Assembly (NCBI RefSeq): GCF_028009165.1
Contig: NC_079242.1
Location: 5,146,001-5,210,000, forward strand
Source: Akanthomyces muscarius
Taxonomy: Eukaryota; Ascomycota; Sordariomycetes; Hypocreales; Cordycipitaceae
DNA: 64,000 nt
Reading direction: 5' to 3'
Of this stretch, positions 5,935 through 61,390 are shown piece by piece. The stretch's first letter is position 1; every line of letters begins with the position of its first letter. A program made the position numbers and the translations under genes. The notes under the pieces were generated by a model, which saw nothing but the letters and a program-made list of their open reading frames with translations, did not search any database and was not told the origin of the DNA.

Positions 5935-8115
5935 TCACTGACCGCGGCCGCGATGGCTGCCCATCTTCTCAATCGAGCTCATAATCCCACTTCTCGATCC
6001 CGGGATTCTCAGCCCCGCCGCGCCTCCAATCCCGCTTCCTGCCGCCGCAGCAGTAGCACCACCACGATACGCCGATCCCGGGGCCCTCAGTCCCGACGCT
6101 TTGCCAACACTGCCCCTTCTCCCGTCCGGGATGATTTGCCGTCCGGGCGTGGTCGTCTGGAGCGACAGGGGCCTCTTGCCGGGTGTCTTGGCCCCAGCGG
6201 CATGGCCCGGCTCCGGCATCATCGGGCGTGAAGGGGATGGTAGCGCTGCTGCCGCCGAGGGCGCCTGCTTGCCGCCGACAATGCTCTGCATCGACATCAT
6301 CTCCTCGGCCAGCTGGACGAGCTCGCCCTTTTCGACGCGCTCCTGCTCCAGCAGGCCGTGCAGGTGCTGGTTGTCGCCCTGCACAGAGGACACGACGGCT
6401 TCGAGGCGCTGCACCGTGGCGTTGAGCTCGCGAATCGTCACGCGGTCGCGGCTCGCCTGCTCCTTGTCCGCCTCGGCGTTGGCCTGCGCGGCCACGAGCA
6501 GCGTGTCGTCTGGGTTGGGGTGTCCAGCCTGCAGGCTCGCATTCTCCTCGCAGAGGTCGAGCACGCGGCGTTCGAGCTCCTTGACTTTCTTCTCCCAGCG
6601 GGACTCGTAGGATCGCTTCAGTGCCGCCACCTTGGTCTGGTGCTTGATCTTGTACAGTCCGTGCAGCTCACGCGACATGCGCTCGACGGCCAATTCTGCC
6701 TCTCTGCTCGTCTCTCCCGGGGACGAGGGTTTGCTGGGATCCGACTCAGTCTCTCTGCCAGCGCGCAGGCCGGCAATCTTGCTTTCCGCTTCTTGGTGCA
6801 TAATCTCGGCAGCCTCGCGGCGCTTCTCGCTCTCTTCGAGCTTGTGCTCCACCTCCTCCCGTTCCTGCTGCCCGTGGACAATTTCATCGCGTAGCTTGTG
6901 CAGCACGGTCTCCATCTCCCGACCGCGGCGCTCCCAGTCTTCCTTTTCAGCCACCGCCTGCTCGCGCTGGGCCGACTCCTCGCGGAGCTTTTCCAGAGAC
7001 TCGCCCACGCGCTTCTCCGCGTCGCCGACCGCCGTTTTGAGGGACTGCACCTCGGCCTCTTTGCCACTCAGAGAGGCCTTGAGGGATGAGATTTCAGAAA
7101 GGAAGCCAGACTTCAGCGACTCGAGCTCGCGCGAGGAGATTGACGGCATGCTACGCGGCGTCGGCAGCGGGGGAATGTCAAAGTCGATGAGCGCTGTCGT
7201 GGCGCCGGCTCTGCTTGGCGTGGCCGCAGTGAGATTGGGCATCGTGCTGGACGACGGCAGCGGCTTCTTTTCCGGGGAGCGGCGCGGGTGCCGCAGCGAG
7301 TCGGTAAAGTCCATGAGAAGATTAGTCGTGTTGCTACTCTCGTCTCGTGTGCTCGGACGCGACGACGACACGTTGGCGAGCGCCGCCAGCTTGGCAGGGC
7401 TCTGCTGCGCCCGCCAGTTGGCGTAGCTAGTGAGCGTCGGTACGGCCGAAAAGGTGCTAAACGTGCTGGCCATGGTGTCGTCTGGGTTAAAGCCGCCATC
7501 TTCCTGGTTGCTCATTGCCGTCGGCGGCCGTGACGGCGCCTTGTTCTCTTCCTCCTCGTCATCTTCAAAAATGTCAATGGGACGCTGCAGGTGCCCATTC
7601 GTTCGCATTGTCTCATCCAGGCTGGCCTGCCTGTCTCGCACCTCATCCACTCCGCCGCCGCCAATCTTGACGGGGAACCGCTTCTCCGGCGACGAAATCT
7701 TTCTAGCAGTCCGCGTCGGGGGCGGCCCCATGTTGCTGCCGTCTATTTGGGACGCCTCCTCACTGCTGCGCTTGCGGTTGAGAATCTTGAGGGGCGAAAG
7801 CTCTGTGCCCGAGATGACGCGGCTGTGGCGGCGGTCTTTAACCGGCGACAGGCTCGGTCCATTCATGACGCTGGCGGGCCGCGAGCTGCCGTTTTCTTGC
7901 TGGCTGTGGGTAGTGGCGGCCGTCACGGCGCTGGTGTTGCTGACGAGCGGCGAGGACATGGTGTCTCCGTCTTCATTGACAGACGTCTTTGTGTAGATGT
8001 GGTCCTCGCTCGTGGATGTCACTGTATATTTCCGGACCTCGTAGTCGCCTTCGTAGCGACGAGGGCTAGGTGAGCGGTTGAGGGTGGCATCGTGTGCCGG
8101 TGACAGCGGAAACAT
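5935..8115 (-). CDS. Coiled-coil phosphoprotein, possibly spindle-pole-body Cut12-like
   Basis: Single-exon 726-aa protein. The N-terminal ~320 residues look disordered and rich in Ser/Pro/Thr, with many SP and TP sites (SPSPRR, LSPVKD, LSPLKI, SSPEK) of the kind used by cyclin-dependent kinases. Residues about 325-610 form long heptad-type coiled coil (repeated LKxxL, EEVEHKLEESEKRRE). The C-terminal ~100 residues are basic and Gly/Ala/Ser-rich, ending in RGRGQ. A block within the coiled coil (HGLYKIKHQTKVAALKRSY) reminds me of fungal spindle-pole-body formation proteins of the Cut12 type; this is recollection only and should be treated as a hypothesis. Start at 8115 is the first ATG of the open frame. 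Its promoter lies between the gene and a retrotransposon that begins about 500 bp upstream. Confidence 0.85.
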   Translation of the reverse strand: MFPLSPAHDATLNRSPSPRRYEGDYEVRKYTVTSTSEDHIYTKTSVNEDGDTMSSPLVSNTSAVTAATTHSQQENGSSRPASVMNGPSLSPVKDRRHSRVISGTELSPLKILNRKRSSEEASQIDGSNMGPPPTRTARKISSPEKRFPVKIGGGGVDEVRDRQASLDETMRTNGHLQRPIDIFEDDEEEENKAPSRPPTAMSNQEDGGFNPDDTMASTFSTFSAVPTLTSYANWRAQQSPAKLAALANVSSSRPSTRDESSNTTNLLMDFTDSLRHPRRSPEKKPLPSSSTMPNLTAATPSRAGATTALIDFDIPPLPTPRSMPSISSRELESLKSGFLSEISSLKASLSGKEAEVQSLKTAVGDAEKRVGESLEKLREESAQREQAVAEKEDWERRGREMETVLHKLRDEIVHGQQEREEVEHKLEESEKRREAAEIMHQEAESKIAGLRAGRETESDPSKPSSPGETSREAELAVERMSRELHGLYKIKHQTKVAALKRSYESRWEKKVKELERRVLDLCEENASLQAGHPNPDDTLLVAAQANAEADKEQASRDRVTIRELNATVQRLEAVVSSVQGDNQHLHGLLEQERVEKGELVQLAEEMMSMQSIVGGKQAPSAAAALPSPSRPMMPEPGHAAGAKTPGKRPLSLQTTTPGRQIIPDGRRGSVGKASGLRAPGSAYRGGATAAAAGSGIGGAAGLRIPGSRSGIMSSIEKMGSHRGRGQ

Positions 8116-8495: not shown

Positions 8496-8532
<37 letters not shown>

Positions 8533-8609
8533 ATAAAAAAATCAAAAACAAATCAAAAACAAATCAAAAAAAAAAAGTCGGGGCACTTCCAAACGAATTA
8601 TCTAGGACG
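8116..8609. promoter_or_regulatory. Upstream region of the coiled-coil gene with long A-rich tract
   Basis: Promoter/leader of the minus-strand coiled-coil gene. It contains a run of 30 A at 8501-8530 followed by A-rich, partly tandem sequence (repeated AAATCAAAAAC) to about 8577. Composition is otherwise normal and shows no sign of RIP. The retrotransposon target duplication starts at 8610. Confidence 0.55.
8501..8530. repeat. Homopolymer A30
   Basis: Uninterrupted run of 30 adenines on the plus strand, followed by a short tandem A-rich repeat. It could be a simple repeat or the relic tail of a non-LTR element; no coding remnant is visible beside it. Confidence 0.95.
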
Positions 8610-8614
8610 TTCTC
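8610..8614. repeat. Target site duplication, left copy (TTCTC)
   Basis: Five bases TTCTC immediately before the 5' LTR, identical to those after the 3' LTR at 21428-21432. Confidence 0.93.
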
Positions 8615-8788
8615 TGTTGGGCCACGGTCACGTGCTCCGCAGCACTTCCTGCCCTCCATCGCCGCCGTGCCCATCTTGTATCTTAGCTTCTATATCACTT
8701 AATACACACCAAATCTCTAATAAAGCTTTATTATATCGTGTGCTTGTTTCTCCCTTTATACCTCTATCACTTCACTCCGTACACCATA
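8615..8788 (+). repeat. 5' LTR (174 bp)
   Basis: Begins TGTTGGGCC and ends ACACCATA, where the final TA is the RIP-changed form of the canonical CA kept in the 3' copy. It aligns without gaps to 21254-21427. I count 19 differences, all transitions: in the outer half the 5' copy keeps the ancestral C/G, in the inner half the 5' copy is the mutated one. Confidence 0.95.
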
Positions 8789-9900
8789 TAGTAGTAATTG
8801 CCTTAGCGTGGAAATAAGTTCTTTAACACCCTATACCAATCCTAAGCTAGCCCCGCTCTCAGATAAGGTTTATTAACCATTCCGCTAACAGTCTATAACG
8901 TAACTTAGTCACTAGATAGTCAAGCCGCGCTCCTAATCCTAAGATTATATAAATTAAAGCCTTTTAAACTCCCTAAGTTAAGCCTCGCTCCTCTTTTAGT
9001 ATAGTTAAGCCTAAATAAGCCTCCTATAACCCTCTTTAATACGACCTCCCTAAGCTAAATAAGCTTTCTATATAGTTAAGCCTAACCCACTCCTATAAGC
9101 TATAAATTATTATTAAAAGTTTAAAATAGATACTTAAGGAACTTAAATATAAAAATCCTTTAAGTTATTACCTTTAGATATAAAAGGCCCCTATTAGCTT
9201 AGTTTTCCTCCTAATAGCTAGCCCTAACTGTCTTATAATATAATATTAATATCCTATATATTAAGACCTAGCTTATAACTACCCCTATTACTTCTTTAAA
9301 GGGAGCTAGCAGTTTATTAACTAATCTAATCTACTTTCTATCTTAGACCTTTATATCTTATTAACCTATTCTTATTACTAATAGGACCCTTTTATAGTAC
9401 TTACTTTAGATATAGTAAGAACCTCCCTTATTATAACACTAATAGACACTTCCTACTAAAAGAATAACACTAAGAAGTAGACCTTAAGCCTACTATACTA
9501 ATAGATAAGGTACCCTTTCCCTTTCCTTAATAGGATATTATAACCCTAAAAGCCTTTCCTATATCCTTTAATCTTATTAACCTTTAAGACCTTCTTACTA
9601 AAGACTTACCTATTTATAGTAGAAGAACCTTTAAACCGCTACTATTAGAATTATAAAGACCGCTCTTTACCTACTAGGCTAAATCCTTCTCTAGTTAGTA
9701 TAAACCTTAAAACATCTTATATAATAATAGTATATAAAGTAACAGCCTAGATAATATACCCTCTAAGCCACCTAGTACTAGTAAGACACCCCCTAATTCC
9801 TTCTATCTATCTATAGTCACCTCCTAACCTCCATATCCTATTATACCCCTAAAACTAGTATTACTTACTAGTATATATAGTAGTAGATAATCTAGTATAG
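8789..9900 (+). other. RIP-mutated leader of the retrotransposon
   Basis: About 1.1 kb after the 5' LTR in which I could not follow a convincing protein frame. The primer binding site should lie at its start (sequence after 8788 is TAGTAGTAATTGCCTTAG), but RIP has hidden its tRNA match. Confidence 0.5.
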
Positions 9901-11760
9901 CCCCTCTAGTATCCCTTATATAGCCACTTAAAGATTATACTAGAGCGGATTATTTAAAAGACACTATTATTATTAGTATTACCACTAAGGAAATCTAGAA
10001 TAGCTACCTCTTATATCTCTAGCCCTTACTTAATAGTAAAGTGGTAGTAACTAAAGCTATCCTTTATAGTATACCTACTATAAACTATAGTTAACTAAAA
10101 GCTAGGACTCTCTAAGATTTAAATAAGAAAACTTCTATCTTCCTTAATAAGTAAGCTATTATAGTTATAGTCTTATAGTTTTAATAAGGTCCTAATATAG
10201 CTAACCTTATATAATAATAACTAATATAATAGTACTAGTCCTACTCTAGCTAAAATATATCTACCCTTAGCCTATATTATTCCGCTAAAAGATATAGTTA
10301 TATTATAGATAATAATATCCCTAGTTCTTAACCTTACTATAAACATTACTTTAACGATAATATATATAGCCTACTACTATATTATAAATATTACTCTAAT
10401 AAAGACATATATAACCTACTAGGCTAATATAGATAGGGTAAAGAAAAGAGTAGACCTTATATCCACACTATCCCTAAGCTTAGCCTCCTTATATATAACT
10501 CTACTATTATATTAGTTAACATATATATCTCCTAGTTAAATATACTAGCTTAGCTTTATAGAGAAGACACTATATTAGCTTCTATTATTCCTAGTCTAAT
10601 ATCCTAACTAGAATTAGATAGCTATAAATAGTTTAATTCTTTTAGTCCTTTTATTAAAGACAGGCTAATCTTAGACTTTCCTTTTTAGAAGGAATAACTT
10701 TATTAACGTTTCTAGCTTAACTATAGTTAAATTATTTAAGAAGTAAATAGTATTATCTACTTATTTATAAATAAGTTAGTTTTATCTCTAAATTAGTACC
10801 TAAACTAGAAGATTACTAAATATAGTAAAGCTAGCTATATTAATAATAACTTAGTTACTTACCGCCTACTATTAGATATAGACCTTACCCTTTCTAAACT
10901 CGTTAACACTTAGAGTGATAATCTTTCTAGTAAATAGGTATAATAAACACTTATATCTAAAGCCCTAAGTGCTAGAAAAGATTAGAAATAGTAGAATTAA
11001 GTTATAATAACCTTTTAGTAAGAGCTCTCCTAATTATCTAAAAGCTATACTACTTAGAATAGATATAATTTAGGTCCTTAACTATCTTAATCTTAGCTAT
11101 ACTTATACTAAGACTCTAACAGTTTATATAGCTATAGCCGCCTATATAAACCCTAAGATAATATAGTATTTAATCGCCCTTACTCTAGAGATTTCTATAA
11201 CTTTTAATTATCTAATAGTTAGGATAATAGATATAAGCGTAAAGATTATCGTCCCTAATAAATAGGTATTCCCCTATCTAGCTAAGAATTATAACCCTAC
11301 TTAGCTAATAATAGTAACTATTTAGATTAGAATAGTCTACCCTATTCTAACTCTTAGGATTATTACTGTCCTAATAATAATAACCACTACTACTTACCCT
11401 TATAAGATAGGTACTAGTTACCTTCTTAAGATCACTATTATAATTTATATAGTAATAAACTGTATTTTAACTAGCCTAAAGTAAGGAAGGAGCGTTTTAA
11501 CCGCCTACCTCTACCCGCTGCCTAAGTCTATCTAATTTAAGTAAATATTACTAAGCTATCTTTAGATACCTTTACTAATAAGGATAGATATTAGTCCCTT
11601 ATAGTAAAAGATTACTATAGCTACTAGTAGGGAGTAAGCCGCCCCTACTATAGATATCTATATATTTATTACTATCTATTATAAAGTTATAAAACCTATA
11701 TTACTAAGAAAAGAATATACCCTAATAGGCTAGATTATAATAACTTTTACTATTAGAATT
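9900..11760 (+). pseudogene. gag-like ORF of the retrotransposon (RIP-inactivated)
   Basis: In the frame of positions divisible by 3, reading TAA/TAG as former Gln gives a long continuous, mostly hydrophilic protein. It has a helical middle section (for example around 10,660-10,960) and a basic C-terminal part near 11,220-11,260 (DNRYKRKDYRP). Around 10,332-10,415 there are regularly spaced Tyr/His residues that could be RIP-changed Cys of zinc-finger motifs. Position between the leader and pol, length, and the -1 frame relation to pol fit a Gag. No intact start codon; the limits are approximate. Function is inferred from position, not from a recognised capsid fold. Confidence 0.6.
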
Positions 11761-14700
11761 AGCAGACTAGCTTATTTATACCTAGTTATATAGCTATCTT
11801 TATACGCTTACTACTATAATATTAATAATCTTTAATACTAGAACTAGTTATAATCTTATTAGTCGCCTATATTTTTAGTTATACTTTACTTACCTACCCT
11901 TAAAACCCGTTAAACCCTTATCTATTAGTAGTATAGCTAAGATATAAGTCCTTAGTTATAAGACGGTACACTTACCTATAATATTATATATAGTTATAAA
12001 CTATTTCGTCTTATTTATAGCCACTATTCGTATAGTTAAGTTCCTCCCTTATAGCCTACTTCTTAGCAACTATTTCCTCTAGCCTAATTAGCTATATATC
12101 CTCTAGGGCTAAGGACAGGAACTAGACTATTTATAAGTCAGTAACAACTATATAGCGGTCTCTATAGTGCTACCCTAATAGAGTAAAGCTATTAAGTGTT
12201 AGTTACTTACTACTACTCCCTATATAATCCTACTAGGCAGCATAACATCCATTTCACTCCGTTATAGTCACCTCCCCTGCCACACAGATAGTTACCTTAT
12301 AGACCCAACTATTATGTCTAATTATACCAGCTAGATAATAGTATTATTAGTACCTAGTATTATTACTAGAAAGGAGACGGTATTCCCTATCTCTAATCTT
12401 AGTATAGCCCTAATACACATTTATAGAGGATAATTCTTAGGACACTTTTATTAAGTATATTAGATATAGTTAGCGGACGTTTTTACTATAGATAAGTGTG
12501 CTTATATTCCCTTAGACGAACTATTAGGCCCTAACTGCCTAAATATAGAACTAGAGGACCTAAGATAACTAGATAGATACCTATTTTATATTCCTAAACT
12601 AGACACTAATATTAATCTTTCTAGTACTAACATTTCTAATACCTAGGGCGTCACCTATACTAATAATATATATCATATTATAGCCTATTATATAAGGCTT
12701 TTCTATATAGGTATTAGGCGTTTTAATAATAGCGTAAAAATACCTATTACCCTAAAAGATAGTATCTCTTTAAAAGACCTTAGCTAATAGCCTTACACTA
12801 TATCTTACTATAATAAGGACGCTTTTAATAAGATAATTAATCCCTTATATACCTAAGGTGTCGTTAAGTCTATACCTTTAGGCGAACTATCTTTAGTGTC
12901 TAGCCCTATATTTATTATATAGTGTAATAGTAAACCTTATATAGTTATAGACCTATATCGCGTTAATACTAAGCTCGTATTAGATGCCTACCCGCTGCCT
13001 TAATAGGACGATATCCTCTCCTCCTTCTAAAGGTGTTCTATTTTTTCCTACCTTAACCTAACTAAGGGTTTCTTTTAGCAGCCTATCTATTCTAAATATA
13101 AATAGCTTACTACCTTTATTACCTAGTATTAAGAATAGGAATGTTTTACGTCTAGCACTATAAGACTAGCTATAAGCCTATCCTTCTTCTAACACTATAT
13201 AGAAGCCCTTATACGCCCCTACCTTTAGTAGTTTATCGCTATATATATTAATAATATTATCCTATACTCTTATATAACTATAGATTATTTTATTTACCTA
13301 GATATAGTCCTAAATATCCTCGCTACTTCTAGTTATACTCTTTTACTTATAAAATACTATTTTATATAGGAAGGTTTATAAGCTCTTAGATATTTTATAT
13401 CCCGCCTAGGTTTAAGCACTACCACCTAAAAGATAGAAGCTATCTATAACCTAGCTACGCCTTATAATCTTAAAGACCTTAAGATTAGCCTTAGCCTTAT
13501 AGGTTACTACTATAATTTTATTAACTACTTTACTAACTTAGTAAAGCTACTATAAAAGCTTAAAATAGCAGGATTTAAGTCTACCTCTAAATAGAACCCC
13601 TAATATAATAAGTATACTACTAAATAGGATTTAGAATAGTATAAAGCCCTTTAAGATAAAGGCAAGATTACTTAGAATAAGCTAAAGACTATATTAGTTA
13701 AAACTTATATAATAGCCTATCTAGACTTTAGTATACTATTTAAATTACACATTAATAGGAGTAAGAAATATAGTTATAATATAGCCTTATACTAATAATA
13801 ACTAGATAAAGTAATACGTCTAATTATATTCCTCTTTAAAGCGCTATTACTAGCTAAGATAAACTATAACGCTATAGAACTAGAAACTAGTATTTTAGTT
13901 TAGGCCTTAGGAAAACTAGAATATTATTTAGATAGCTTCTTAGTTATTATTATTATAGACCACACTACTATTAGAGATACCTTCTAATCTATTAGCTCTA
14001 ATAAACCTAAAAGTAAGTACCGCCTAGTAAACTAGCGCCTCTTCCTAGAAAAATAGCGAAATAAAGTATAAATTATATATCACTAAGGCCGCTATTATAT
14101 TAATATAGATACACTCTCTCACCTACCCGTAATTCCTAAGAAGGAAGTAGACGTCCTACCTATAATAGCTATTCCTATTCCTACTCTAAAAGCCTTCCTA
14201 GTAGAGCTCTATAATAAGATCTTAACTGCCCTACTAGTTAACTATATATTCTATAAGGTTTTCTATAAGATTAATAAGACTAGGTATAGTTTACTATCCT
14301 TTAAGATTTATTATTATATAGGCCTACTATTTTTCTATAAAAGCCTAAATAAGGCCCCTTACCTATATATTCTAAAAGCTATTATTTAAGATATTATATA
14401 GATAGTATATAACAACTACACTTATCCTAATATCTATAACACTTATAAGTTCCTCCTCCCTCTAATTTTCTACCTAAGTGTCTATAAAATAGTTACGTGT
14501 TATATTAATAGATATCTAGAATATACTAAGTCTAAACCTTAGTATAGCCTCCCTTATAGCGATATAGTACCTATTCTAACACTAAAAGTTCCTTTATCTA
14601 CGCTATATCTAGACTTTATTACCAGCCTACCTATAGATATAGATATAGACACTTTACTACTTATTACTAATAAGTTTACTAAGATAATAAGGGTAATTAT

Positions 14701-15640
14701 TAATCGCCTAAATTAGGACGCTACCTAATAGGCTAAGTATTATATCTAATAAATTTATCTAAATTAGGGCATACTATATATCCTAATTTATAATAATAAT
14801 CCTAAGTTAGTATCCTAGTTATAGATAGCTCTTTATTACGCTACTAATATAATAATAGTAATAAGCGCCCTATACTACTAATAGGCAAACAGATAAGTAG
14901 AACACTTTATATAAACTCTTATCTATAGCCTTTATACTATTATTAGAGCTTAATATAATACTTCTACCTAGTATTTATTTTTACTATATATCTTAAACTA
15001 CCTTAATAATTATAGATATATATTAATAGATATCTCCCTATTTAAGTTACTCTATAATCGCTTATTAGTCTATTTCTTAAACCTAAACGCTATTATTAGT
15101 ATAGAAGACTCTTATACCCTCCTTATCGCTTTATAATAGCGCTATAAGCTTACCTAAGATACTATATAGCTAGCTACTACCTAGATAAAGATTCTCTATA
15201 ATAAAAACTATAAACCGCCACCTTATATTAAAGAAGGCGATATAGTTTATATTAAGCTTACTAAACCTAGTTAAGATAGTTACTACTTATAAAGCTAAAC
15301 TAAGTTATCTTATCGCTATATTAGTCCCTTTTATATAACTAAAATTATTAGCCCGCTCCGCCTCTATCTTAACCTACTAGACTACCTTAAATAACACCCT
15401 AAAATAAGTATTAAGAACTTAGAACTAGTACACCTAAATACCTATCTAGTAGCCTTTTTAGGCCCTATACACTATTATAAGGAAGAAAAGTTTATTATTA
15501 ACGAAATTTTAGATAAGAGATATAAAAATAGCTATATAGAATACCTAATATAATAGTTTAGATATTCTTAAGATTAGGACACTTAGGAACTAGAAAGATC
15601 TTTATAATAAGATATCTTATAACTACTTAACTAGTTCTAT
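11760..15640 (+). pseudogene. Ty3/gypsy pol polyprotein with chromodomain (RIP-inactivated)
   Basis: All domains lie in one frame (positions 2 mod 3). Protease: RIP form NTRTS of the DTGAS active site at 11,834-11,848. Reverse transcriptase: the block around 12,950-13,020 reads DLYRVNTKLVLDAYPLP, then KGFFQQP near 13,070, and YINNIILYS, the RIP form of the YIDD catalytic motif, near 13,241-13,267. RNase H: KLHINRSKKY and ELETSILVQAL around 13,740-13,920. Integrase core: LDFITSLP near 14,610, the second Asp region IYNNNPKLVS near 14,800, and the Glu region ANRQVEHFI near 14,885-14,915 (Q restored from TAA). Chromodomain: EEKFIINEILDKRYKNSY from 15,482, followed by an IKW-type stretch and a DTWEPE-like end near 15,595. 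Residue changes and stops are consistent with C-to-T and G-to-A transitions only. Confidence 0.93.
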
Positions 15641-15959
15641 TTATAATAGTTATAGTAAGCTTTAATTTTAGCCGCCTATTATATATAGTTAATCACATTA
15701 AGATCCTACACCTTTATTTACACTATTAACACATCTAAAACAGCTAGTTATAGACCTTAGAGATTTTATTCTTTAAGGCTATAACTATACTATTTTTATT
15801 CTTATATACCTACCCTATCTCTAATTATAATATTATATTATATTATATATAAAAATTTTGCTATTACCTAATAACTAGCTCTAACAGTTAGGTCGCTAGC
15901 TAATAATAAATATATCTATAAATATAGTAAAATAAGTTAAAAAAGGCTAAAGTTAATAA

Positions 15960-18900
15960 ATTTTTCTATTTAAAAATATCTTTATTCTATAAGCTTATAG
16001 CTTTCTTTATTTTCTAAAAGTACTCTTAGCGCCCTACCTCTTATATTCACTAAATATTTATTACTATAGCTAAATCCTATAAAGACCGCCACTATACTAA
16101 ACATAACTAGTATACACTAAAACCTTATAGTTCTCTAGCCCCGCCCCCTTAAGATAAGATCGTAGCCTCTTAGCCCGCCCCCCCCTCTACTACCCCTAAT
16201 AGCGTTAAGAAAGATAAGATTAAGACTCTCCTATTCTCTCCACCCTCTACTACCCCTAATAGCGTTAAGAAAGACAAGCCCACAGCTATCTAGCCCAAAC
16301 CTACTAATACTAACTAGGGCTCTGATAATCCTCCTAGCCCTACTAATAATAACTAGGGCTCTAATAATCCCTCTAGTCTAATAGCCACCACCTAGGGCTC
16401 TACTAACCCGCCTAGCCCTACTAATAATAACTAGGGCCCTAAAAATCCTTCTAGTCTTATAGCTAACCCCTTTAGCCTAGCTAATAACAAATAGTACTTA
16501 GACGGCCCTCCTAGCCCTCCTAGCCCCGCTATTAACGATAGATAGATCGCTAACAGCCCTCTTAGCGTAGATAATTTTAGTCCTAACAGTATTAAGACCC
16601 TTAATAGATAAGATAATAAAGACGCCCTATTAGAGGAAAAGAAGCTAAAAATAAAAACTATAGCTTAAAAATAGTAAGAGGAACTCCTTACCTAACTAGA
16701 AGGTAAAAAACTTACTAAAGTCCTTAAAGCTAGCTATATATTTAATAGCAAGTCGACTAGATATATCCTTCTCTAGCCTAATAGCTCCGCCCCTATTTAT
16801 AGCTACTACCTTACACGTATTAGTCGTCTTAGTAAGGGTAAATAAAGCGGTTTAACTACTTATCTTAATATATAACTTTCCTAATATAGTCCTAAATAAT
16901 TTAGCTTATACTATAACTAGTATATAGGCTAAAGACACACTTTAGGCTATAATATAGTCGCGGATTTTAATAGCACTACACTTAAAGCCTAGACCTTTAA
17001 TATTAAGGAAGAAGAGGGCTATAACCTACTATACGTCCTAAACTCTATTATAAAAGACACTAATTTTCCCCTATCCTAAGCGGATAATAAAGAAAAATAT
17101 AAGATTAAGGAAAAAATTATAGACTATAACCTTAACTTAACTATCACTATAGTATACTTTCTATAAGCTACTAAGCTCTCTATCTTATTACCTAAAGGTA
17201 GTATCTTTATAGTATAATATAACTTTACTAACTAAAAGGCTATTATTAGTAATATCTAGAAAAAAGCCCTCCTCCCCTTTATAAATATCTTACTAGAAGA
17301 TAATTTAGTTAAGATCTCCTTATTTATTTATAGATAGAAAGATTAGGATAACACTTTTAAATTTATAGTTATATAAGGTGACTATATAGAAGGCTTCCTA
17401 GTTAGTTTATTTTTTAATAATATTAATAATAATAAGATACTTAATATAAGTAATATTAATATATCCTACTATCCTATCCCTACCTATTCTATTATAACTA
17501 TAAATAACTTTATTAATAATATATAATATATAAAAATCCTTACTATAGGCGTAGCTTATAAAGTAAGGTTCTTAAAGATAAAGAGTTTAGTTTATAGTTA
17601 TTTATATTTTTAGTCTAGTCTAATTCTTATAGATATAACCTAATAGCTAAAAGCACCTATAGATAAAGACACCTTTAGTATTACTAGTTATAGCTAGTAC
17701 TATAAGTTTTACCTTAAGGTTAAATATCTTAAGGACAGTTATAATTACCTACTAGATCTCTTAATCTTAGTAGAGATCTACCTAAATATAGCTTATAAGT
17801 TTAAAGATATTCCTAAAATAGCTATAAACGCTATAAATATTAATACTACTATTATAGCCTTCTTTACTAAGTTTAAAGACTATAACACTATAGCTTAGGA
17901 TTATATTAAAGGTATAGATAAGTAATATTATAACACCTATACTTATAAATAAAAAAATAACTTATATAACACTAATAGCCAGCTAATTAACAACTTTAAG
18001 GAAGATAATTATAAGCCTATATTAGTAACAGACTAGATAACAGTCTAGCTCCCCTTTATATATAAGCGCCTTATTAGTCTCCTTTTACCTAATATTCCTT
18101 ATAATCTTATAAAGTAATAGCTTACTAGTTAGAAAATTATAGACATATATAAAGCTATTACTATTAAAGCTATTACGACTCTTATTACTATCACACCTAT
18201 AAATAAGTAGGTAGTTTATATATAGCTTACTATATAGTTTAAAGCCTATCATTCTATTAAAAGTAACATAGATAATATTATTTAGATAGATATTAAGTAG
18301 TATAGTTATTATATTCTATAAGTCGTAAGTACTATTTCTAGTTATTAGTTCTATCTCCTTAAGACACTAAAACACCCTAACTAGCCGCTATACTTATCTA
18401 CTCCCTCTCTCTATTTCTCCTATAAGAACCCTAATATTAGTAGCTCTCCCTAAAAGTTTATAGATAATATAAGGTACACTATCTTTATAGTTATCTTCTA
18501 TAATATAGATACTAATATACTAAAACATAAAGGTTACTTTACCTACTTTATAAATAATCTAACTACTAACTCTAAAGGCGCCGCTTAGTAGGTATAGTAA
18601 CTAAGTCTTAATTACAACCTAAATACTATTATAAAGGCTAATCTACTAAAAGAGTTCCCTAGTATTACTATACACTTCTAATAGGGCGCTTTTTAAGGTA
18701 AATATAGTAAAGCCACCTTAGCTCTAATAACCTCTATAACTAATAAGTTTATCCTCTTAGGAGGTCTAGGATTTAGTAAGTCTACCTTTACCTAAATATA
18801 TTTATCTAGCACTTTAATAGGTAACACTATTCTTAACAGCTAGTTAGGTTAAATAACTACTATCCACACTATTAGTATAAACGCCCTTATATTAGATATA

Positions 18901-21060
18901 CACACTATATTTTTACATAATAATCCTACCTATTTAGCCACTTATACGTTTACTTTTTAGAAAGAGCTCTTAACTATCCTTTATTATAAGCCTCCTTAGC
19001 CTAAGCCTACTACTAAGGAGATTATAGCGCGGGTTATAACTAAGATCTAGCTAAAACGCCACGCCACGCCTACTACTATCTATAAACATATTATATGTCT
19101 TAAAGAACTTAGCTAGGAATTACACTCTCCTAGCCGCTATAAATATAGTCTCGCCTTAATCGCTATCTAGTATATTAAGAGTAACCTAGCCACTTATAGT
19201 GCCGTTTATAAAAGCTAGGCTAAATATAATATAGACTTTATAGTATAAGAAGCTAAGAAAAAGACACTTAAAAGTACTATTACTAAGCTACTCTATTAAA
19301 TTATCTAGGATATAGATATTATATTTTATATACCCTATATAATAAGAGACCTTAAAGATAATTATCCTAACTATATACCTACCTTAGTTATTATTAATAA
19401 GACGGGCTTCCTTACTAAGACCTAAATACTTATACCTATCGCCTATTAGCTAGATATAGCTGCTATTATCCTTAATAATCCTAACTAGTTCTATCTAATT
19501 ATTATATACTAGTATAAGCGGTTATATTTTAAGCTAGAGCTAGTAACCTAAACTAAGATAGCCCTTACTCTAGAGTTTAATAATCTTATTAGTAAGTAAT
19601 ATCGTTACCCCTTCCTCGCCTATATATAAAACCTCTATACTATAAACTATACTCTTATTTATAACTATTACGTTTTTAGATCTATAGGCGAATATATAGA
19701 CTATAATATATTTAATAGCTAAATAGAGTGTATAAACCTTACTAATAACTCTATTATATAGTCTCTCTAGTAATAGCTAGCTATAAAGTAGGAATCTAAG
19801 CCTAAAAAGAATCTCTTATAGCTTAAACTTAGTGATAGCGCTAAGGAGCTAGTAGGCACCTCCTTTACTAACCCTACTAAGATATAATATTATATTAAAA
19901 TAGCTATCTAGTTTTATTATAATATTAACTTTCCCCTAATAAGCGACTAGCTAGAATATAAGGCTAGTAAATATAATACTAATATAATTTAATATAGCTA
20001 TATTCTTATTATTTATATATATATATAATAATATAAGCTAATACTATCTATATTAATAGACATTCTAGTATATAAAGTAGACACTTTATATATTAAAGTC
20101 TATACTATTAACTAAAGTCTTAACTACTAAAAAGAAGTCGTCCTTCTATCTATTAGCTACTCTTAGAATCCTAGTTACACCTATAAGATTAAGCGCTCTA
20201 ATATCGCCCTTATATATTATATATTACTTATAATTACTATTTCTTCTAAGGACCTCTATTATAGTTTTAATCTTAATAAGTACTACTTATACTATAAGAA
20301 GTATAAGTATTTTTAGTTACTTTAAGGTTAGTCTAAATAGTATACTAAATACTTATAATATAGCTATATTATAGTAAATTATAAGGAACACCTAGTATAC
20401 GCCTTTTATAAAAGGAACTATACTAGCTGCTACTATAAGCGTATACCTACGTTAAAGCTCACTAAGGTTAACACCTAAACTAAGCCTATAACTACTAGTA
20501 ATAAGAAGCCTCTCCTAGCTATAAAAGACCCCACTACCACTAAAAAACCGCCCACCACTAGCAATAATAAGCCTATTAACAGCCTAACTATAGAAGACCC
20601 CACAGCCACTAAGAGGATCGCTAGTTATAATAATATCTAGTATTTAATTTAACACTATACTAACATTTAGAAAGGCAGGAAGCCTAAAGTTAACACTCAC
20701 CCCTTTTATACAGTAAAGACAGCTAACTATAAGCACCTTTTAGCTAAGTTCGTCTAATAAGATAACACTAAGACTAGCACTACCCCTACTACTAACACTA
20801 CCCCCGCTAACAGCGTAACGCCTAAGGATAATAGCGGCAGCTCTACTAATAGCACTTCTAACCGTAATAATCCTCCTAATATCGTCGATAATAATAAAGG
20901 CTCCTCTTTTAGTACTTTATCTACTAAACCCCCTATTATCTACCTAGCTAACTAGTATAAGATGTTAGACTAGTAATAGACTAAATAGGAAGCTTACTAC
21001 CTCTATAAGATAGACACTTCTATATAGTAAGAATAGAAGGTTTTTTAGTATAAAAGATAT
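15960..21060 (+). pseudogene. Third retrotransposon ORF: UPF1/DNA2-like SF1 helicase with proline-rich N-terminus (RIP-inactivated)
   Basis: One frame (positions 1 mod 3) can be read for about 5 kb with only TAA/TAG interruptions, each explainable as a former Gln codon. The N-terminal part (16,130-16,570) is Pro/Ser/Asn-rich with tandem repeats. Helicase motifs follow in order. Motif I is GGLGFSKST at 18,760-18,786, a RIP form of a P-loop. Motif II is NKTGFLTKT at 19,396-19,422, from DEAG-FLTET. Motif III is NNPN-stop at 19,474-19,488, from GDPNQ. Motif V is KEVVLLSISYS near 20,131-20,163. Motif VI is KIKRSNIALIYY near 20,185-20,220, from RRxNIALTRA. This order and the VVLLS...RRxNxALTRA signature are those of UPF1/DNA2/NAM7-type superfamily 1 helicases. 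Downstream (20,281-20,445) are Tyr/Cys/His-rich positions that may be ruined zinc knuckles, then a Thr/Pro/Asn-rich tail. Start and end are approximate. It lies wholly between pol and the 3' LTR. Confidence 0.75.
16187..16470 (+). repeat. Tandem repeats in the N-terminal part of the helicase ORF
   Basis: Two copies of a unit reading PPSTTPNSVKKDK (around 16,186-16,224 and 16,237-16,275), followed by several copies of a unit reading about NPPSPTNNN-stop-GS (16,330-16,470), where the stop is a former Gln. The DNA copies are nearly identical despite RIP. Confidence 0.8.
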
Positions 21061-21253
21061 AGACATAAATTATTTACTTATTTTTTCCTTACCTATTATT
21101 ATTATATAGCTCTATTAAGTATAAAAAGGGACTATATATTATAGTTATTAGGAATTTAATAAAAAGTCTTTTATTTTTCTTATATAAGTACCTTAACACT
21201 AAGACTATTATTATAACATTAAGGACGATATCTTTTTTCTTTCGCTAGGGGAT

Positions 21254-21427
21254 TATTAGGCCACAGTCACGTACTCCACAGCACTTCCTGCCCTCTATCG
21301 CCGCCGTGCCTATCTTATATCTTAGCTTCTATATCACTTAATACGCACTAAATCTCTGATAAAGCTTTATTACATCGTGTGCTCGTTTCTCCCTTTGTGC
21401 CTCCATCGCTTCGCTCCGTACACCACA
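21254..21427 (+). repeat. 3' LTR (174 bp)
   Basis: Begins TATTAGGCC (the RIP-changed form of TGTTGGGCC) and ends ACACCACA. Its inner half carries the RIP changes and its outer half is unmutated. A short purine-rich stretch (AGGGGAT, about 21,247-21,253) just before it is a candidate polypurine tract. Confidence 0.95.
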
Positions 21428-21432
21428 TTCTC
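21428..21432. repeat. Target site duplication, right copy (TTCTC)
   Basis: TTCTC directly after the 3' LTR, matching 8610-8614. Confidence 0.93.
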
Positions 21433-29039: not shown

Positions 29040-31287
29040 ATGCCTGACATTGCGCTGCCCGTCGTGCTGCCTCGCAAGAGAATGCACATCCAAGACGAGA
29101 TCCTGCAGCAGAGCCTGCGGAGCCCAGAGGCCTTCTGGGCCCGCCAGGCTGAGCAGCTGCACTGGCACCGGAAGCCCGACGCCACCCTGCGCACCTTTGA
29201 CAAGACGCTCGCCGACGGCAGCACCGCCCACGCCTCCTGGGAGTGGTTCCCCGGCGGCGAGCTGTCCACCTGCTACAACTGCGTCGACCGGCACGTCCTC
29301 GCCGGCCGCGGCGACAACGTCGCCATCTACTACGACAGCCCCGTCACCAAGACAAAGGCCCAGTACACCTACAGGCAGCTCCTCGAGGAGGTCGAGACGC
29401 TCGCTGGCGCGCTGCGCCAAGAAGGCGTCAAAAAGGGCGACGTCGTCATGGTATACAGTAAGTAGCCGACGCTTCCAACAAAGTTGCACAAGACTTCTGC
29501 TGATCCACGTTCAGTGCCCATGATCCCCGCCGCCCTCATCGGCATCATGGCCATCAACCGCCTCGGCGCCGTCCACTCGGTCGTCTTTGGCGGCTTCGCC
29601 GGCAACGCCCTCGCCCAGCGCATCGACGCCTGCGAGCCCGTGCTCATCCTCACGGCCTCGTGCGGCATCGACGGCGCCAAGCCGCCCATCCCCTACCGGC
29701 CGCTCGTCGAGGAGGCCCTGCGCCTCGCCGCCCACAAGCCCCAGCGCACCATCATCTGGCAGCGCGAGGAGCTGCGCTGGGGCAAGACGAACCGCCTCAA
29801 CCAGTCGTCGTGGCAGAAGTGGGTGCGCAGCGCCAGGGACCGTGGAATCAAGGCCGACTGCGTGCCCGTTCGCAGCAGCGACCCCGTGTACATTATCCAC
29901 ACCTCGGGCACCACGGGCGTGCCCAAGGGCGTGTGCCGCGACTCGGCCGGCCACGCCGTCGGCCTGAACCTCTCCATCAGCTACCTGTTCGACATCCACG
30001 GTCCGGGCGACGTCATCTGCACGGCGTCGGACGTTGGCTGGGTCGTGGGCCACTCGTACATTGTCTACGCGCCGCTGCTGGCGGGCGCGGCCACGGTGCT
30101 CTACGAGGGAAAGCCCGTGGGGACGCCCGACGCCTCGTCCTTTTGGCGTCTGGTGGAGGAGTACAAGGTCAATGCCTTTTTTACCGCGCCGACGGCGCTG
30201 CGCGCCATCCGCCGCGACGACCCGGACAACAAGTTCTTTACGCAGGTGGGTGAGCGCGATGGTCTGCGCTCCCTCCGGGCGCTCTTCCTCGCCGGCGAGC
30301 GCTCCGAGCCCAGCCTCATCTCCATGTACCAGGATCTCTTTGACAAACACGCCGCGCCGTCGGCCCACGTCATTGACAACTGGTGGTCGACCGAGGCCGG
30401 CTCGCCGATGACGGGGCGCGCGCTGACGCCGCACGCCGCCCACGACCGCGGCACGCGCATTCGCAATCACAAATTGCCCGTCCTTCGACCGGGCAGTGCC
30501 GGCAAGGCCATGCCGGGGTTTGATATCCGCATCGTAGACGATGAGGGCCGCGAGGTGGCGCGCGGCAGCATGGGCAACATTGTGCTCGGCATGCCGCTGG
30601 CGCCGACGGCGTTTCGCACGCTCTGGGGGGATGAGGAGCGCTTCTACAAGAGCTACCTCAAGCGCTTCAACGGCAAGTGGATGGACACGGGTGATGCGGG
30701 TATGATTGACGAGGAGGGCTACGTGCACGTCATGAGCCGCAACGACGACGTGCTCAATGTCAGCGCGCACCGTCTATCGAGTGGTGTGTACAGACCTACC
30801 ATTATAGCAGAAACAGAAGAAAGTATCAAGCTAACATGAGACAGGCGGCATCGAACAAGCAGTGTCGTCGCACCCGCTCGTCGCCGAGTGCTGCGTCATT
30901 GGCATCCCCGACGCGCTCAAGGGCCAGCTGCCGTTTGCCTTCATCACGCTGTCGACCAGCGACCACCCCCCGTCGGCGATTCCCGACGAGGCCCTCGCCG
31001 GCGAGATCCAGGCGCTGGTGCGCAAGCAGGTCGGCGCCATCGCGACGCTCGGCGGCATCATCCAGGGCAAGGGCATGATCCCCAAGACGCGCTCGGGCAA
31101 GACGCTGCGGCGCGTGCTGCGCGAGCTCGCGGAGAATGCGGTGCACGGGGAGTTTGCGAAGGAGGTGGCGGTGCCGAGCACGGTCGAGGACGCCGCGGCG
31201 GTGGACGTTGCGAGGGAAAAGGTGAGGGAGTACTTTGAGAGCATGGGGCATAAACACAAGGCGATTGAGGCCAAGGCGAAGCTATAA
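29040..31287 (+). CDS. Acyl-CoA synthetase, propionyl/acetyl-CoA synthetase-like, with peroxisomal signal
   Basis: AMP-forming acyl-CoA ligase of 709 aa: activates a short-chain acid (acetate or propionate are the family's usual substrates) to the acyl-CoA through an acyl-adenylate. Three exons, 29040-29457, 29515-30783 and 30845-31287, join in frame. The N-terminal ACAS_N-type region (EAFWARQAEQLHWHRKP) is followed by the adenylation motif TSGTTGVPKG at residues 272-281, DVGWVVGHSY, NWWSTEAGSP, the A7 region WMDTGDAG near 525, and the C-terminal IPKTRSGK with the adenylation Lys at about 648. The GWVVGHSYIVYAPLL and ST-E-AGSP pattern is closest to PrpE/ACSS3-type propionyl-CoA synthetases. 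The protein ends AKL, a valid PTS1, so peroxisomal location is predicted. The ATG at 29040 is the first in frame. Confidence 0.93.
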
Positions 31288-59442: not shown

Positions 59443-61390
59443 ATGGACGCCGAATCTGCGCTTTCCAAGGGGTCCTTGGAGTAAGAATTTCTCGCCTTCT
59501 GTCGTGTTCCTGCCGCTAATCCGCGTAGCCTCATCTTCAATGATCCCGACAAGGCGACCAAACAGTTCCCCATCCCGACGATGCAATGCCTGCAGGTCAA
59601 GCAGATGGCGCCTTCCGCCCAGGGTGGCGACAGATATCGTCTCGTCATGAGCGACGGTCAGCACTACGTCCAGACCATGCTGGCGACGCAAGCAAACCAC
59701 GTCGTGCACGAGGAGAAGCTGGTGCGCGGATGCATTGCTCGCGTCAAGCAATACACGCCCAATAATCTGAAGGGCAAGAAGTAGGTGCTATCTGCTAGTG
59801 ATCAGACAACGAGCTTCGGCTGACCAATCAGTATCCTCATCATTCTCGACATCGAAGTCATTGAGAGCTACGGCATCCTGGACAAGATCGGCGAGCCCTC
59901 AGCCGTCGAGTCCAAGGCCGCCGAGACAACCATTGCCGGCAACGACTTTTACGGCGTCAAAAAAGAAGAAAAGGCCACCCCACAGCAGCAATCGATGCCC
60001 TCGCGACCAGCCATGCACGCTGGAAACAACATTTACCCCATCGAGGGCCTGTCGCCCTTTTCTCACAAGTGGACGATCAAGGCCCGCGTCACATCCAAGT
60101 CGGAAATCAAGACATGGCACAAGGCGACGGGTGAAGGCAAGCTGTTCAGCGTCAATCTGCTCGACGAGAGTGGCGAGATCAAGGCGACTGGCTTCAACGA
60201 TCAGTGCGACGCCTTCTATGAGCTGCTGCAAGAAGGCTCGGTTTACTACATTTCTACACCCTGCCGCGTGAACCTGGCCAAGAAGCAATTCTCCAACCTG
60301 CCCAATGACTACGAGCTGGCGTTTGAGCGCGACACAGTGATTGAAAAGGCCGAAGACCAAACCAATGTGCCGCAGGTACGCTTTAACTTCTCCACCATCC
60401 AAGAGCTGCAGAGCGTCGAAAAGGACAACACGGTCGATGTCATTGGTGTTCTCAAGGAGGCTGGCGAGATTAGTGAGATTGTGTCCAAAAAGACGGGCGC
60501 GCCTTACCAGAAGCGTGAGCTTACCATGGTCGACGACACTGGTTACTCGGTGCGCGTCACCATCTGGGGCAAGACAGCCAGCTCTTTTGAAGCACAGCCT
60601 GAGTCTGTTGTCGCCTTCAAGGGCACCAAGGTATCCGATTTTGGCGGCAAGAGCCTGAGCCTGCTCTCATCGGGCACCATGTCCATCGATCCCGATATTC
60701 CCGACGCCCACCGCCTCAAGGGCTGGTACGACTCGGCCGGCCGCAACGACACATTTACCACGCACCAGAATCTTGCGAGCGTCGGCGCTGCCGGCGGTCG
60801 CAATGACGAGATCAAGACAATTGCGCAGGTCAAGGAGGAGAACCTCGGTGTGGACGACCAGGCCTACTACACGATCAAGGCGACAATTGTCTTTGTCAAG
60901 CAGGAAAACTTTTGCTACCCAGCGTGCCTGTCGCAGGGCTGCAACAAAAAGGTGCAAGACATGGGCGACGGCACGTGGCGCTGCGAAAAGTGCAACCTGT
61001 CGCACGACAAGCCCGAGTACCGCTATGTGCTGAGCTTCAACGTGGCCGACCACACCAGCCACCAGTGGCTGAGCTGTTTTGACGACTCGGGCCGTGCGAT
61101 CGTGGGCATGTCGGCGGACGAGCTGATGGATCTCAAGGAGAATGACGAGGCCAAGTTTCTGGCCGCGTTTGAGGCGGTCAACTGCAAGAAGCTGCAGTTT
61201 CGTTGCCGCGCCCGCATGGACAACTATGGCGAGGTGCAGAGGTGAGCTTTTTCGATCAAAGTGCCGCAAGTGTCACAAGCTAACTGTAAGCAGAGTACGG
61301 TATCAGGTCATGACAGCATCGTTCCTCGACTTCAAGTCGGAAGGCGATAAGCTTGCGGAAATGATTAAGCAATACGACATGAACAATTAG
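59443..61390 (+). CDS. RFA1: Replication protein A large subunit (RPA70/Rfa1)
   Basis: Large subunit of the RPA heterotrimer that coats single-stranded DNA in replication, repair and checkpoint signalling in the nucleus. Exons 59443-59480, 59529-59780, 59832-61241 and 61294-61390 give 598 aa, the usual length. The N-terminal OB fold (1-110) includes QMAPSAQGGDRYRLVMSDG and, across a splice, KGKNILIILDIEV. A linker with Gln/Pro follows. DNA-binding domain A begins near 175 (IYPIEGLSPFSHKWTIKARV), domain B near 300, and domain C holds a C4 zinc ribbon (Cys462, 467, 481, 484; spacing C-x4-C-x13-C-x2-C). The C-terminus VRYQVMTASFLDF...IKQYD is the trimerisation region. All parts present; it should be functional. 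The promoter has two MCB elements, fitting S-phase expression. Confidence 0.97.

Follow-up and report, generated by a model that had tools for sequence, protein, structure and literature searches.

Can a retrotransposon carry a helicase of its own in the env position, and what would such an enzyme do for it? This question is raised by a stretch of 64,000 nucleotides from the genome of Akanthomyces muscarius (hereafter the window; C2:5146001-5210000, contig NC_079242.1, in a genome of 36.19 Mb and 12 contigs). A single long terminal repeat (LTR) element with paired LTRs and target-site duplications (TSDs) spans 8615-21427 of the window (12,813 bp). Downstream of gag and pol it contains a third open reading frame (ORF), here called ORF3, at 15988-21060 (about 1,690-1,700 codons, given as the extent of the frame because its start and stop codons are not determinable). 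The explanation that we favour, which we rate a little below an even chance, is that this is a Ty3-type LTR element present as two complete copies damaged by repeat-induced point mutation (RIP), and that its third frame likely encoded a UPF1-like helicase with predicted Argonaute-binding WG/GW repeats that would blunt silencing. Positions are those of the window unless a contig is named, and all the features described for the element lie on its forward strand, the TSDs being unstranded.

A third frame that travelled with the element

The window stretches 8600-12000, 11900-15960 and 15960-21060 were used as queries in DNA searches of the genome. They returned a second complete copy at C5:3916310-3929123, 84-88% identical to the window copy, bounded by its own 5-bp TSD (TATAT, against TTCTC in the window) and less decayed, with a GC content of 0.37-0.38 vs 0.29. 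These two were the only complete copies found in the genome. A solo LTR of the family (C4:1153691-1153866, 174 bp, with the 5-bp TSD CTATA) is a third insertion that has lost its inside, and the remaining matches were 68 bases within the element's own ORF3 and, on C5, part of a diverged LTR.

When the window and C5 copies were compared (piecewise, with 65 bases between pieces omitted and one base counted twice), they differed by 1,818 transitions, 7 transversions and a single gap run in an alignment of 12,747 positions. The copies were therefore nearly identical when they separated, and what changed later is almost wholly of the RIP kind. ORF3 accounts for 782 of the transitions and 2 of the transversions, with no gap in 5,208 positions, and the parts upstream show the same pattern (397 transitions and 1 transversion in the leader and gag, 510 and 4 in pol, 98 and 0 from the end of pol to ORF3), as do the LTRs (14 and 0 in the 5' LTR, 17 and 0 in the 3' LTR). 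The RIP indices of the C5 copy are also close in ORF3 and in gag-pol (TpA/ApT 1.85 vs 1.72; second index 0.57 vs 0.61). Since ORF3 stands at the same place in both copies, without gaps and decayed like gag and pol, it travelled with the element rather than having been inserted into it late. The gap-free ORF3 of the C5 copy, together with the lack of a second TSD, of convincing terminal repeats and of an empty site, rules out late nested insertion.

The frame itself is the same in both copies and fills the space between the chromodomain and the 3' LTR. RIP gives rise to TGA less readily than to the stop codons TAA and TAG. In the C5 copy, TGA occurs 4 times in the ORF3 frame and 17 and 47 times in the two other forward frames. 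From this lowest TGA count over some 1,700 codons we infer that the ORF3 frame was still open before decay set in. The TAA and TAG codons taken together (94 in ORF3 vs 95 and 225) do not single out ORF3 against one of the other frames.

In these respects the original prediction has stood. It had described one TSD-bounded LTR element, and LTRs of 174 bp are found at 8615-8788 and 21254-21427 with the TSD TTCTC on both sides (8610-8614 and 21428-21432). The third frame was also given correctly, as were its length (about 1,700 codons) and its position, with the chromodomain on one side and the 3' LTR on the other, and all of these recur in the C5 copy. The comparison that it proposed, of the gag-pol-helicase order in other copies, gave the same order in the C5 copy, within its own 5-bp TSD and with a gap-free ORF3. 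Finally, it had seen no boundaries of a nested insertion, and we likewise found no convincing repeats at the ORF3 edges and, in the genome DNA search, no copy lacking ORF3.

Helicase motifs and profile searches

Helicase motifs of superfamily 1 (SF1) were located with RIP-tolerant patterns that were written after the finding had been seen, so that the scan was not blind. With codons counted from 1 in the frame beginning at 15988, both copies have motif I (Walker A, RIP-altered; 18760-18783, codon 925), motif II (DEAG-type; 19396-19407, codon 1137), motif III (GDxxQFxP-type; 19474-19497, codon 1163) and motif V (20137-20151, codon 1384), in order, in one frame and at the same codons. The chain is absent from the five other frames of the ORF3 stretch in either copy. 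In sets of 20,000 codon shuffles the I-II-III-V chain appeared twice for the window copy and never for the C5 copy or for both jointly. Leaving motif I out raised these counts to 57, 28 and 21, while adding a motif IV match at 19597 (a I-V chain) gave 1, 0 and 0. This last match (QYRxxP-type, 19597-19614) is probably not the true motif IV; by profile alignment a QYR-like motif falls at 19660-19677, reading YNYRVF in the C5 copy and YNYYVF in the window copy, with the Gln unmatched. Motif VI is partial (20191-20220) and fits RRxN[IV]AxTRA except for the last Ala.

The second half of the putative helicase also has a profile match, although one below the cut-off. Three cuts of the C5 copy matched AAA_12, the C-terminal region of UPF1/DNA2-like helicases (19639-20193 by the position of the C5 match), with 19.9, 21.7 and 22.3 bits (E 5.7e-4, 1.7e-4 and 1.1e-4), and the two other forward frames of this copy, for which one cut was tried, gave no AAA_12. 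A profile-profile comparison with six SF1 helicase frames of the host aligned the region that begins at the QYR-like motif and extends to where motif VI starts, with E 0.029; the wrong frames gave 0.73 and 0.29. On the strength of the motifs and of the sub-threshold profile match, ORF3 is a likely, although not proven, SF1 helicase, with the UPF1/DNA2 branch as its most likely affiliation. RIP can explain the weakness of the AAA_12 score, because the reverse transcriptase (RT) of the same C5 copy, whose identity is certain, is under its cut-off as well (RVT_1, E 1.1e-5, 25.7 bits against 29.6).

Two other kinds of helicase were considered and rejected. The helicase pieces list AAA_12 alone in Pfam, even with E values of up to 5 or 10 admitted, which speaks against a Helitron or an RNA-virus helicase; the absence of Rep and PIF1 families in the Pfam runs on the element frames and the presence of TSDs also speak against a Helitron. 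The host genome also has a diverged SF1 helicase-like frame at C1:5558802-5559425, with the motifs DEAGSM and GDDRQFAPLV and an AAA_12 score of 71.9 bits; visual comparison puts its DEAG and QF.P signatures nearer to ORF3 than those of UPF1.

A WG/GW segment at the N-terminus

Near its N-terminus the C5 version of ORF3 has five WG/GW dipeptides within 77 residues (16315-16545, as read in that copy), with Trp at codons 110, 123, 149, 169 and 186. The dipeptides start at 110, 123, 149, 168 and 185, and a sixth one at 310. Three of the five are inside a 13-residue tandem repeat (39 bp, about 4 units, 16300-16463) that codes for part of the segment, and the remaining repeat unit has a stop at this place in both copies. 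In the window copy all five Trp codons are TAG, the RIP product of TGG. The surrounding residues 61-215 have a high content of P, D, G, A, S, L and N. None of 20,000 residue shuffles reached five WG/GW in 110 residues. Control open frames of at least 150 codons, taken from the window flanks and from other fetched loci, contained none in 98 of 127 cases, one in 25 and two in 4, never more, and the other eleven six-frame readings of two C5 loci had at most one.

WG/GW repeats in disordered segments are known as AGO-hooks, and SDE3 is among the plant proteins listed with such a hook (PMC10991848; here and below, statements from the literature draw on parts of the cited papers). The N-terminal repeats of ORF3 are predicted from their sequence to form an Argonaute hook, and a possible target exists in the host, since it has at least two genes with a Piwi domain. 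If this is correct, the ORF3 protein would be translated from the element RNA and would dock on the host Argonaute through its WG/GW repeats, acting as a decoy or as a local antagonist of silencing complexes. The helicase might then strip guide-target duplexes or proteins from the element RNA, which, protected in this way, could survive for packaging and reverse transcription.

Weighing the explanations

A number of observations weigh against the helicase and hook reading. The AAA_12 match is below the curated cut-off of 27 bits, AAA_11 is not listed, neither the window version of ORF3 nor the whole ORF3 of the C5 copy has any Pfam match, and three cuts of the C5 copy that contain motifs I-III but not the full AAA_12 region scored nothing, so that the first half of the putative helicase is recognised only by its motifs. 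The original prediction had expected a UPF1/DNA2-like helicase to emerge from profile searches and had listed motifs I, II, III, V and VI in order in one frame. The sub-threshold AAA_12 match of the C5 copy bears out the first point in part, whereas the matches to AAA_11 or AAA_12 over the cut-off, and any match of the window copy, failed to appear; of the motifs, I, II, III and V are found in both copies and VI only in part. Indeed, the strict motif VI pattern has no match, its last Ala position being the one that does not fit, and motif IV is ambiguous, since the QYR-like motif sits 63 bases past 19597 in both profile alignments. The hhalign probability for ORF3 against the host SF1 profile is 1.7%, a home-made profile built from seven SF1 helicase frames of the host failed to separate ORF3 from shuffles, and ORF3 has no match in PDB (by sequence), NCBIfam or PHROGs. 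As to relatives, no homologous protein of ORF3 was found at E <= 0.01 among 7,993 candidates (about 290-930 residues long, a range that excludes full-length relatives), and selection on ORF3 is not measurable with 2 transversions between the copies. The Trp residues of the hook are readable in one copy only and three of the five fall in the tandem repeat. The WG/GW test was chosen after the repeat had been seen, and a count of dipeptides is no test of Argonaute binding. Beyond these points, scans of viral contigs for relatives of ORF3 gave 195 and 382 pattern matches, with none confirmed in either scan, and the structure model of ORF3 is unusable, with no fold and a mean pLDDT of 25.8.

A cellular UPF1-like gene is the probable source of the helicase, its capture predating the separation of the two copies. 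One can go further and propose a fungal chromovirus lineage with its own SDE3-type silencing helicase, in which an N-terminal hook and a UPF1-like motor in the env position were captured from the host silencing machinery and turned into a dedicated anti-RNAi weapon; this seems doubtful to us, without being far-fetched. The helicase could instead serve the replication of the element, unwinding or remodelling its RNA and clearing proteins from it during packaging and reverse transcription, in which case the WG/GW segment would be a low-complexity linker with no Argonaute role. A frame that is integral to the element and helicase-like suits such a role, yeast RNA helicases are cited in Ty3 retrotransposition (PMC4686597), and the 39-bp repeat could by itself multiply WG. 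But WG/GW also occurs outside the tandem repeat, at Trp codons 169 and 186, and a chromovirus of the same genome with an intact pol frame of 1,190 codons has a period of 6,299 bp, too short to hold such an ORF, so that a helicase is not generally needed. A replicative role is on balance unlikely, though it deserves to be kept in mind. It is rather improbable that ORF3 is a passively captured host gene, acquired by transduction and carried for a few transpositions with no help to the element. Such cargo would agree with there being only two complete copies, with the absence of relatives elsewhere within the limits of the searches, and with selection not being testable between the copies. On the other side, a genome search with ORF3 codons 407-1540 returned only the two copies and thus no close cellular parent, and the TGA counts (4 vs 17 and 47) are those of a frame that we take to have been open before decay.

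Two further explanations are given very little credence. In another fungus, subtelomeric chimeras have a chromodomain Gypsy element inside helicase-bearing repeats (PMC5576322), and a helicase-bearing second element might similarly have inserted into the present chromovirus before both copies arose. Such an ancient nest is very improbable here, given that ORF3 is on the same strand as pol and fills the space up to the 3' LTR, that the only other complete copy has it at the same place without gaps, and that neither copy shows convincing direct or inverted repeats at the borders of ORF3 (the best has E 0.035 and comes from the AT-rich window copy). It is just as hard to believe that the motifs arose by chance in an AT-rich decayed frame and that ORF3 is no helicase at all, for example an env-like or some other protein. 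The lack of any profile match over a curated cut-off, the negative result with the home-made host profile, the ambiguous motif IV and incomplete motif VI, and the absence of a fold all speak for chance, but four motifs in order in both copies are rare in codon shuffles, and AAA_12 is matched with E 1.1e-4 in the right frame and not in the two other forward frames.

Gag-pol domains, element ends and genomic surroundings

The remaining coding parts were analysed by searching each copy separately, with stops replaced by X and with the curated cut-offs of Pfam. A gag-like frame at approximately 9504-11904 is marked by low stop density in the C5 copy and has no Pfam match in either copy. The RT is at 12911-13564 (position from the C5 copy), and the X-masked pol of this copy matches the RT of the intact chromovirus of the same genome with E 3.2e-15. 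The RNase H-like domain of the RT (13727-14047) is over the cut-off in the window copy itself (RT_RNaseH, E 5.9e-6, 26.8 bits), and in the C5 copy RT_RNaseH_2 reaches 29.5 bits vs a cut-off of 29.8. The integrase region (14483-14959, position from the C5 copy) has no Pfam match in the runs on the element frames and shares 25% identity with the corresponding region of the intact chromovirus (E 0.0012-0.0017). At the end of the integrase is a Tf2-1-like SH3 domain (15236-15421; E 4.7e-4, 20.6 bits, below cut-off). A weak chromodomain follows at 15491-15613 (position from the C5 copy), where Chromo scored only 14.1 bits (E 0.046, cut-off 25.1), the window copy having no match. The order RT-RNase H-integrase, as read from these matches, is that of a Ty3-type element. 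Because even domains of certain identity score near or below their cut-offs in such decayed sequence, these values are the yardstick against which the scores of ORF3 have to be read.

The two LTRs of the window copy differ at 19 positions, all 19 of them transitions. A purine-rich tract, AGGGGA, lies before the 3' LTR, and no primer-binding site could be assigned in the element by eye. With a TpA/ApT index of 1.78 and a (CpA+TpG)/(ApC+GpT) index of 0.23, against 0.52-0.64 and 1.29-1.32 in the flanks, this AT-rich element with RIP-type decay sits between GC-rich flanks. A long A-rich tract (8500-8576) lies upstream of the 5' TSD, at a distance of about 35 bp. The neighbouring frames at 5938-8115 (reverse strand), 29484-30836 and 59995-61242 (both forward) have, respectively, Fungal_TACC (27.7 bits, cut-off 27), AMP-binding enzyme and replication protein A domains.

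The intact chromodomain Ty3 family has its 1,190-codon pol frame free of stops, and one locus is not RIP-like by the indices. Since this family is intact in the same genome, RIP does not appear to have struck every repeat family. It is found in head-to-tail runs of four with the 6,299-bp period, at C1:7421411-7445438 and C4:4833351-4852553. Both runs are near contig ends (C1 7,450,776; C4 4,856,708), and the terminal 6.8 and 9.7 kb of these two contigs contain no array of telomere repeats. A shorter frame of 692 codons lies beside the C1 run, and single copies are located at C4:332294 and C7:433178.

Relation to known elements and significance

SDE3 and MOV10 are UPF1-like helicases, and the hook of SDE3 is C-terminal. 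In contrast, the predicted hook of ORF3 is N-terminal, and SDE3 is a cellular gene of plants; the likeness drawn here is one of domain combination. What ORF3 would share with these proteins is the joining of a helicase to a WG/GW Argonaute hook, SDE3 being described as an AGO-hook protein (PMC10991848). Captured enzymes in the env position are found in bdelloid LTR retrotransposons, where, unlike the helicase-like frame described here, the ORF3s code for a DEDDy exonuclease or a GDSL esterase (PMC5408684). Transposon-borne helicases are also a feature of fungal Helitron, AcademH and KolobokH elements, which are however DNA transposons with PIF1-type or DEAD/Helicase_C domains (PMC10799480). 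Such DNA transposons have neither LTRs nor an RT.

A functional parallel comes from insects, with their retroelement-encoded SF1 helicases and proposed silencing suppression (PMC4686597, PMC5563155, PMC6338049). Viral-type SF1 helicase domains occur there in long interspersed nuclear elements (LINEs) and, fused, in LTR elements, and one LINE helicase has a reported weak suppressor activity, so that a silencing-suppressor function has a precedent (PMC4686597, PMC6338049). Viral helicase sequences close to plant LTR elements are mentioned too (PMC4686597). The insect cases are mostly non-LTR elements with a helicase of RNA-virus type, the LTR fusions being in Diptera and Hymenoptera (PMC4686597, PMC5563155, PMC6338049), whereas the helicase reported here would be in an LTR element, likely of the UPF1-like branch and in a separate third frame; no WG/GW hook is described for the insect cases in the parts of these papers on which we draw. 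Among fungi, a survey of Ty3/Gypsy elements gives a size range of about 4.4 kb to over 13 kb, and one of its figure legends lists an additional ORF (PMC2864245). Those large elements resemble ours in being long and having an additional ORF; the legend gives the function of theirs as unknown, whereas the ORF here has helicase motifs and WG/GW repeats (PMC2864245).

Among the open-access literature matches listed, a scope outside which subscription papers and Repbase fall, none describes an LTR element of fungi whose ORF is UPF1-like or carries WG/GW. Retroelement SF1 helicases are already in print, as is an additional ORF in Gypsy elements of fungi, and what is new within those matches is an LTR element that combines WG/GW repeats with a likely UPF1-like helicase. 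The original prediction knew of no such element, a statement to be qualified in that the insect LTR and LINE helicases and the fungal additional ORF had been described (PMC4686597, PMC6338049, PMC2864245).

RNA silencing restrains retrotransposons, and few of them are known to carry a counter-defence. If the reading that we favour is true, a UPF1-like motor and an Argonaute hook in one element would be a concrete and testable case of such a counter-defence, would suggest a role for one or more additional ORFs of the large fungal Gypsy elements, and would place silencing helicases among the genes captured by selfish elements.

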